A stretch of DNA of 64,000 nt, from NCBI GenBank assembly GCA_026169375.1, contig JAPFCR010000008.1, forward strand, positions 1 through 64,000. Reading direction: 5' to 3'. The stretch's first letter is position 1. Each line of letters opens with the position of its first letter. The position numbers and the translations under genes were made by a program. The notes under the pieces are model-generated. The model made no database searches. It saw only the letters and a program-made list of their open reading frames with translations, and was not told the origin of the DNA. The DNA comes from Sporosarcina sp. (GTDB lineage Bacteria; Bacillota; Bacilli; Bacillales_A; Planococcaceae). Shown in pieces: positions 22,443-24,292 of this stretch.

Positions 22443-24292
22443 ATGATTATTAACAACAACATTGCGGCGTTAAACACACACCGCCAACTATCATTCAACA
22501 ACACGAACGTAGGTAAAAACATCGAGAAACTTTCTTCAGGTTTCCAAATTAACCGTGCAGGAGACGACGCAGCAGGTCTAGCGATTTCTGAGAAAATGCG
22601 TGCACAAATCAAAGGCCTAGACATGGCTCAGAAAAACGCACAAGACGGAATTTCTTTAATTCAAACTGCAGAAGGTGCACTAGCAGAAACACACTCGATT
22701 TTACAACGTATGCGTGAGTTAGCAGTACAATCTGCGAACGATACGAATATGGATGATGTTGACCGTGATGCAATGCAAGCTGAATTACAAGCATTAACGG
22801 ATGAAATTAATGATATTGCGGGAAGAACAGAATTTAACACGCAAAAATTAATTGACGGGAAATTCGATGGAGTATTCCACATCGGTGCAAACGAAGGGCA
22901 AAACTTAGCAGTATCTATTAATGCAATGGATGCAAGTGGTATTGGTTTAAATGATGAATTAACAATTACAACAGAAGTTGCTGATTATACTACAGCAAAA
23001 GCAACAGTAACTGGTTTAACAGGTTTAGGAGAAGTTAATGTTCTTAGAGATAATAACACTGCTGGTGCTGTTGTAGGTGTTGAAGTGGATGGTAAGTATT
23101 ACTCTACTAACGATGTTTCTATCGCGACAGCTGGAGATGTTACTGACGGTGTGGTAGTAGGTGATGCATTAATTACTGCAGGTGCTTCAGAACTTGATGC
23201 AAAAGCAACTACTGAAGAAACAGCTACTTTTAACGGTGTAGATATTAATAGCCGTGATGCAGCGAACGCATCGATTGAAATTATTAACAATGCTATCAAT
23301 ACAGTATCTACACAACGTGCAGACCTCGGAGCAATCCAAAACCGCCTAGAGCACACAATTAACAACCTTGGTGCATCTTCAGAAAACTTAACGGCTGCGG
23401 AATCACGTATCCGTGATACTGATCACATGCAAGTAGCAGCATAAAAACTGTGAAAGAAGCATGTAGTCGTCCAGACTGGTAACGGTCTGTGAGTATTATT
23501 GGGTGAATTGCTGGAACACCTTGCGAGAGCTTTTCTAACCACAGCGTAGTTGGAAACGACAAGCGCGATGGTTTAAAAAGAGAAAAGAGGAGGCAATCAG
23601 CAGCGAAGCCCCTGTCGGGAAACCGTGGGGAACGTTCAACGACTAGGATAGACCATCTAAAGCAGAAGCCATGATGATGAAATCCGTAGGGAAGTTAGTC
23701 TTGAGTAAACTAACGACTCGAAGCGCCCAACCCCTAATCAATAGCCACAAGTCATTGAAAGGGTGAAGAGATAGTCTAGTCATGTATGAGAGTACATGTC
23801 GCACGATGGCGAAAGAAATGATGGAGTTTACAAAGAACAACATCTTAACTCAAGCATCACAAGCAATGTTAGCTCAATCAAATCAGTTACCAAATGGAGT
23901 TCTTCAACTCTTACAGTAATTAGATTGTACGGGCGTCTATGTTAGTAATAATGTAGATGATCACTGGGTGAATTGCTGGAATATCCTGAGAGCTCTTCTA
24001 CCACAGCGGAACTGGAAACGGTAAACGCAATGGTTTGAAAAACGAAGAGATTGGACAATCAGCAGCGAAGCTCCTGTCGGGAAACCGTGGAGAACGTTCA
24101 ACGACTAGGATACACCGTCTAAGGCAAAAAGCTACGGCGATGAAATCCGTAGGGTGTTACATTGATAACATTCGAAGTGCCCAGCATCCTAACTTCTTTA
24201 GGATGAAGATATAGTCTGTACTATATTCGAAAGGTATAGTGGTATAGCAAGCTAACCAACAACCTCAGGGAGTATTACAATTACTCAACTAA
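22443..24292 (+). CDS. hag: Flagellin Hag, split gene: exon 1 22443-23423, exon 2 23806-23874 (or to stop 23919), exon 3 24248-24292
   Basis: Exon 1 MIINNNIAALNTHRQLSFNN...LTAAESRIRDTD; exon 2 [23 protein letters not shown](QSNQLPNGVLQLLQ*); exon 3 [14 protein letters not shown]. All joins in phase 0; both isoforms 364 aa. Confidence 0.88.
23424..23805 (+). ncRNA. Group I self-splicing intron 1 (382 nt, no ORF)
   Basis: P1: exon TGAT pairs with GTCG (23466-23469) with U.G at the splice site; P1 extension ACATGC/GCATGT. Core AATCAGCAGCGAAGCCCCTGTCGGGAAACCGTGGGGAACGTTCAACGACTAGGA. P7 GACTA (23641-23645)/TAGTC (23772-23776); P9 CATGTA/TACATG; terminal G. Precise removal restores RDTD|MAKEMM. 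Confidence 0.9.
23875..24247 (+). ncRNA. Group I self-splicing intron 2 (373 nt) containing an alternative flagellin C-terminal coding tail
   Basis: Core near-identical to intron 1 (AATTGCTGGAA..., CAATCAGCAGCGAAGCTCCTGTCGGGAAACCGTGGAGAACGTTCAACGACTAGGA); P7 GACTA (24103)/TAGTC (24212); P2 TCTATGTT/AATGTAGA; P9 ACTAT/ATAGT. 3' end GGTATAG lies 7 nt after P9, as in intron 1. P1 extension CAATC (23875)/GATTG (23923); U.G at GCT|. Confidence 0.85.

Follow-up and report, generated by a model that had tools for sequence, protein, structure and literature searches.

The flagellin gene hag of Sporosarcina sp. is split by two group I introns, and the question raised by this locus is which proteins are made if an intron is translated before it has been removed, and how such products would be dealt with by the cell. 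We analyzed a window, that is, the whole stretch of 64,000 nucleotides at the start of contig JAPFCR010000008.1 (assembly GCA_026169375.1), in which the following features were identified (evidence in brackets).

14962–15402, plus strand: fliW, flagellin homeostasis, genomic context (PF02623, 128.2 bits)
15405–15626, plus strand: csrA-like ORF, genomic context (identity as csrA recognized by eye)
22443–23423, plus strand: hag exon 1 (translation; Pfam Flagellin_N/Flagellin_C)
23424–23805, plus strand: group I intron 1, 382 nt (RF00028, 72.7 bits; empty sites in relatives; P1 covariation)
23424–23444, plus strand: in-frame tail HMQVAA-stop from intron 1, proposed degron (translation; kept in 121 distinct copies)
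23466–23468, plus strand: guide GUC of intron 1, which pairs with exon GAU at 23421–23423 (121 of 121 copies; fold of the window sequence)
23806–23874, plus strand: hag exon 2, 69 nt, MAKEMM...AMLA (translation)
23875–24247, plus strand: group I intron 2, 373 nt (RF00028, 80.1 bits; guide/exon covariation GCT-GGGCG and TCT-GGACG)
23875–23919, plus strand: substitute last exon in intron 2, QSNQLPNGVLQLLQ-stop (translation; protein-level constraint in 67 distinct versions)
23932–23934, plus strand: guide GGC of intron 2, which pairs with exon GCU at 23872–23874 (guide/exon covariation)
24248–24292, plus strand: hag exon 3, ends with the stop codon (translation; agrees with intron-free relatives)

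When positions 23424–23805 and 23875–24247 are left out, hag is translated into a flagellin of 364 residues in which the N- and C-terminal flagellin domains of Pfam are both complete, and the two introns are presumably spliced in this strain. Matches to RF00028 were identified at two places in the genome, both in hag, with no third match. The gene is flanked by 31-nt inverted repeats (84%) at 22202–22232 and 24367–24397, which by eye resemble sequence near Bacillaceae-1 RNAs and are possibly a small mobile repeat. Two Bacillaceae-1 RNAs (RF01690; 15750–15816 and 21248–21314) are located between the csrA-like ORF and hag, and a TPP riboswitch (RF00059) was identified at 32869–32971.

The initial annotation had placed a group I intron between RDTD and MAKEMM with the boundaries 23424–23805, and both statements are borne out by the data. 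The match to RF00028 covers positions 23453–23798 (gathering score 50); the 5′ exon ends with CGT GAT ACT GAT(23423)|CAC, and the 3′ end of the intron reads CGCACG(23805)|ATG GCG AAA. Among 87 related hag genes that we compared, both introns occur in 34, intron 1 alone in 20, intron 2 alone in 20 and no intron in 13; these counts do not represent frequencies, since the genes were selected for introns or as intron-free examples. The 33 genes without intron 1 read ESRIRDVDMAKEMM across the insertion point. Immediately before the junction, Asp is encoded by GAT in all 54 genes with the intron, as compared to 25 GAT and 8 GAC codons in the genes without it (Fisher p = 2e-4, kinship among genes ignored), as expected if the U at position −1 must pair with G. 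Pairing of exon GAU with guide GUC was present in each of 121 distinct copies of intron 1, and the P1 helix extends into the intron, with positions +3 to +6 paired in 119–121 of these copies through up to five pair types, and position +5 paired in every copy with five pair types. The terminal six bases are CGCACG in 54 of 54 introns, and the 5′ region of the intron in the window folds better than 199 of 200 shuffled sequences. The exact boundaries of intron 1 are thus confirmed by the intron-free relatives, the invariant U at −1 and the covarying P1 helix. Upon its removal, RDTD is joined to MAKEMM and the frame is restored without any codon change, as had been claimed. In Neobacillus vireti, hag is also present as a second copy (L136, from position 4013), in which the frame of exon 2 is shifted after MAKEMMN.

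Also in agreement with the initial annotation, no homing endonuclease gene was found in either of the two introns; intron 1 is too short to contain one, and the hag introns do not fall among the mobile, endonuclease-bearing group I introns. Besides the hag frame, ORFs of at least 60 aa that overlap intron 1 were found on the minus strand only. Its description as "ORF-less" holds for an endonuclease ORF but not for the short conserved in-frame tail of 5–6 residues with an Ala-Ala end. The overall interpretation given there is partly supported: it had missed that intron 1 is located at the same hag site in 28 named genera of Bacillales (some species labels in this list may be wrong), and it had also missed the contrast to intron 2, the retention of which still gives a full-length flagellin.

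If intron 1 is retained, the product ends with RDTD|HMQVAA* in the window and most commonly with RDVD|YALAA* elsewhere. The predicted protein has 333 aa, and the Flagellin_C domain is reduced to 52 of 86 positions, which upholds the earlier statements that retention costs the C-terminal D0 helix and that flagellin output depends on removal of the intron. To study the tail, copies of intron 1 were gathered blind to it, by similarity to RF00028 or to the intron core and by the sequence at the intron/exon 2 junction; the 121 distinct copies are homologous, and the counts are thus not independent. All 121 tails end with Ala and 118 with Ala-Ala. The commonest tail is YALAA (57 of 121), followed by YAEAA (16) and then by YVLAA, YVLSAA, YTEAA, YDLAAA and others. 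Ala-Ala is preceded by Val in the window and by Glu, Lys or Gln in 28 copies, residues that fit SsrA less well than Leu does.

All copies have 15 or 18 nt, a multiple of three, between the splice site and the stop codon, as compared to 13 to 26 nt between the stop codon and the guide, where 11 different lengths occur and every phase is represented. The last sense codon is GCN throughout, with entropies of 0, 0 and 1.97 bits at its three positions and thus a nearly saturated wobble position, and the penultimate codon has 0.07, 0.12 and 1.04 bits. After the stop codon and on the opposite strand of the hairpin the entropy is 0.98–1.83 bits, although indels also raise the position-wise values after the stop. 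In most predicted folds the last two sense codons contribute to the stem of a hairpin, and RNA structure may account for part of the conservation of the Ala-Ala codons. Yet, codon 2 of the tail, located in the P1 helix, swaps its amino acid (A, V, D, T, M) by compensatory pairs, showing that pairing alone does not fix the residues, and in the 13 copies for which the predicted folds leave the two fixed bases of the last codon without a partner, these bases are GC nonetheless. Judging from the frame-respecting indels, the free wobble position and the retention of unpaired GC, we think that the tail is under selection as a peptide.

Intron 2 (gathering score 50 for RF00028) solves the problem of retention differently. 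We place its 5′ splice site at GCT(23874)|CAA. Among 77 distinct copies, exon GCT occurs with guide GGGCG in 73 and exon TCT with guide GGACG in 4, with no exceptions, and this compensatory change fixes the 5′ site; the last base is G in all copies listed. A 5′ site inside the TAA near 23918 (CAGT|AA) would also be in frame on paper, but no U·G pairing with the guide was found for it, and the exact covariation and the empty sites favor GCT(23874)|CAA. Intron 2 opens with 45 nt that nearly repeat the true last exon and match it in frame and length. The encoded residues differ (SNQLPN vs. ANQQPQ), both ends being conserved. In 67 distinct versions of this substitute exon, VLQLL and the stop codon are invariant, pN/pS is 0.23 in the coding frame as compared to 0.88 and 4.5 in the other two frames, and the mean entropy by codon position is 0.62, 0.21 and 1.19, as compared to about 1.5 throughout the next 45 nt. 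Ongoing gene conversion between the substitute exon and exon 3 was considered and found no support, the identity being 0.67 within genes and 0.66 between genes.

Since the first 45 nt re-encode the C-terminus, an mRNA that retains intron 2 should still yield a complete flagellin, a feature conserved over the 77 distinct copies with one exception. The exception is intron 2 of Oceanobacillus luteolus (L149, position 1042 onward), which has no substitute exon and reads ...MLAQFEQIAA*, and thus has an Ala-Ala tail at a site other than that of intron 1.

These patterns are consistent with a model in which the ribosome would arrive at intron 1 ahead of the transcription and folding of the ribozyme, such that unspliced mRNA is translated. 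The first 5–6 codons of the intron, held in frame within the P1 extension, would close the protein with Ala-Ala and a stop codon, and a truncated flagellin without the C-terminal D0 helix or the FliS-binding end would bear an SsrA-like degron at its C-terminus. The tailed protein would be degraded, most likely by ClpXP, which would clear a product that has no normal export and retains the N-terminal FliW-binding region. If stable, it would titrate FliW, and CsrA would shut down the translation of hag. For intron 2, the same problem would be met by the encoded substitute C-terminus, with a complete flagellin as the unspliced product. We consider it quite likely that the tail of intron 1 acts as an SsrA-like degron on the truncated flagellin and that removal of the intron by splicing is needed for a working flagellin.

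Several observations bear on this model. The terminal Ala-Ala is the main determinant for ClpXP (PMC7652416), and it is present in the 118 tails mentioned above, including HMQVAA. YALAA is the end of the E. coli SsrA tag, and these 5 residues turn GFP into a ClpXP substrate while LAA does not (PMC7652416). The intron tails are 5 or 6 residues long as compared to the approximately 5 needed to reach the ClpX pore, a value that comes from GFP and may be different for the truncated Hag. In B. subtilis, proteins with Ala tails at the C-terminus are directed to ClpXP (PMC8957991), and ClpX is present in our strain. The best data on the degron concern ClpX from E. coli, which we counted against its application here. 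The tmRNA tags of 30 related genomes end with LAFAA, LAYAA or FAFAA, which indicates that variation at the third-last residue is normal in the family. Residues 1–72 of flagellin suffice to bind FliW (PMC6070490); the truncated Hag retains these 72 residues and loses the C-terminal FliS-binding part. Cytoplasmic Hag inhibits FliW, allowing CsrA to repress hag (PMC6529632), and hag would thus be expected to be shut off if the truncated Hag were stable, which the degron would prevent by clearing it. The fliW gene and the csrA-like ORF are located in the same window as hag, at 14962–15626. The truncated flagellin is thus probably tagged for destruction, while the destruction of the tailed Hag, the identity of the protease and the titration of FliW are steps that we infer.

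Other explanations for the conserved tail were weighed against the degron. It might be that hag simply contains an ordinary self-splicing intron with an early stop codon that keeps ribosomes off the ribozyme core, Ala-Ala being a by-product of a GC-rich hairpin with the stop codon in its loop. Early in-frame stops are known in group I introns, where they have been explained by stalling that helps folding (PMC3984707), and most predicted folds pair both Ala codons. A by-product of the hairpin is nevertheless unlikely: the hairpin is conserved on the coding strand only and there at codon positions 1 and 2 only, indels keep the frame before the stop but not after it, GC is retained in the 13 copies where it is unpaired, and -AA recurs in intron 2 of O. 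luteolus and in unrelated phage introns. A little less probable still is a regulatory switch, in which temperature or similar conditions set the level of splicing and thereby the output of flagellin, with the tail marking the OFF product. This is compatible with a degron, it agrees with the temperature dependence reported for flagellin introns in thermophiles (Hayakawa and Ishizuka 2012, as cited in PMC4853749), and a single hag-like gene was identified in the genome at E ≤ 1e-40. However, the presence of the introns is patchy among the relatives, unlike that of a regulator that is kept, and the substitute exon makes the splicing of intron 2 unimportant for output.

We assign a very low probability to the idea that the truncated protein or the protein with the substitute end is a wanted isoform with its own function, as for the surface layer proteins of C. 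tetani. The departure of the substitute exon from the true exon, with both ends conserved, could be taken in this direction, but a flagellin without the C-terminal D0 helix is expected neither to bind FliS at its end nor to polymerize, the tail sequence is variable except for Ala-Ala, and the two ends provided by intron 2 look interchangeable. Nothing was found in favor of an assembly error or a decaying pseudogene; the same insertion with conserved boundaries in many independent genomes refutes this explanation, the probability of which is negligible.

We also asked about other group I introns with respect to the degron. An Ala-Ala tail is not universal: introns in the ribonucleotide reductase gene in the same genus end with VAPTGK*, KLTS*, GGSR* and LESL*. 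Across the genus (L274, L275, L276, L281, L291 and others), this gene contains group I introns at recurring sites, with no Ala-Ala tails. The read-through tails of two introns in Sporosarcina prophage tape-measure genes are KLAA and PVA, and searches with these two introns against phages gave no full-length matches; the tails are EMAA in Lactobacillus phage JCL1032 and SIA in Staphylococcus phage PMBT8. Viral contigs were scanned for group I core motifs, and ORFs that appear interrupted were taken; the pattern AACGTTCAAAGACTA gave just 4 usable interrupted ORFs. In the first phage set, Ala-Ala ends were identified in 11 of 94 interrupted ORFs as compared to 29 of 2213 other ORFs, and two small replications gave 3 of 55 (p = 0.025) and 3 of 44 (p = 0.003). 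In total, 17 of 193 interrupted ORFs end with Ala-Ala as compared to 65 of 6212 background ORFs (1.05%; p = 4e-11). An Rfam search confirmed a group I intron at 7 of the 10 Ala-Ala loci checked.

The host genes of the Ala-Ala tails with a PHROG assignment encode major head, tape measure or sheath proteins in 12 of 14 cases, the remaining two being an ssDNA-binding protein and an RNA polymerase subunit. For hosts of non-Ala tails the corresponding number is 7 of 28 (Fisher p = 3e-4), in a comparison that is exploratory and in which the non-Ala sample was picked partly by ORF length; upstream homing endonuclease ORFs and scaffold genes with natural-looking stops were left out. In one viral contig (L426), four group I introns interrupt a major head gene, and three of the read-through tails end with Ala-Ala, namely NFRAAA, DGLLAA and PLKNLAA. 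On balance, we favor the view that group I introns in genes for self-assembling proteins, namely flagellin and the phage major head, tape measure and sheath proteins, often encode within their initial codons a cis-acting Ala-Ala degron by which the truncated product of unspliced mRNA is destroyed, with a substitute exon used by flagellin intron 2. If so, and we lean toward both statements jointly, these introns would have been shaped by selection on the unspliced translation product.

Group I introns in flagellin genes are known from Geobacillus stearothermophilus and thermophilic Bacillus (Hayakawa and Ishizuka 2009, 2012, as cited in PMC3984707 and PMC4853749), where the group I ribozyme is, according to the citing papers, self-splicing and temperature dependent; Anoxybacillus species contain both introns at the sites of the Sporosarcina hag introns. 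The intron tail resembles the SsrA (tmRNA) tag in its C-terminal Ala-Ala, often YALAA or xFAA, on an incomplete protein, but it is encoded in cis and made by ordinary translation to a stop codon, whereas the tmRNA tag is added in trans. The surface layer introns of C. tetani are likewise located in a gene for a surface polymer, and spliced and unspliced mRNAs each encode a protein; they differ by a group II ribozyme and several alternative downstream exons that give widely different isoforms, while the alternative end in hag intron 2 nearly repeats the last exon. In phage Twort orf142, two similar tandem group I introns surround a short exon (PMC10136302); by comparison, exon 2 of hag (23806–23874), also located between similar introns, is 69 nt long, and its skipping would keep the frame and remove 23 residues of D0. 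We found no description of a degron encoded by an intron, or of a group I intron with a substitute last exon, in the literature available outside subscription papers, and this absence is weak evidence. Group I introns in flagellin genes and early in-frame stops are known, and the proposed intron-encoded degron and the substitute last exon appear to be new.

It has long been asked how group I introns can persist in bacterial genes that are highly expressed, given that transcription and translation are coupled, and the degron or the substitute exon would provide a concrete answer. If true, each would be a means by which an intron makes its own failure harmless, which might explain the tolerance of flagellin and phage coat genes to introns; the encoded ends would also aid in recognizing the 5′ boundaries of introns in genomes.
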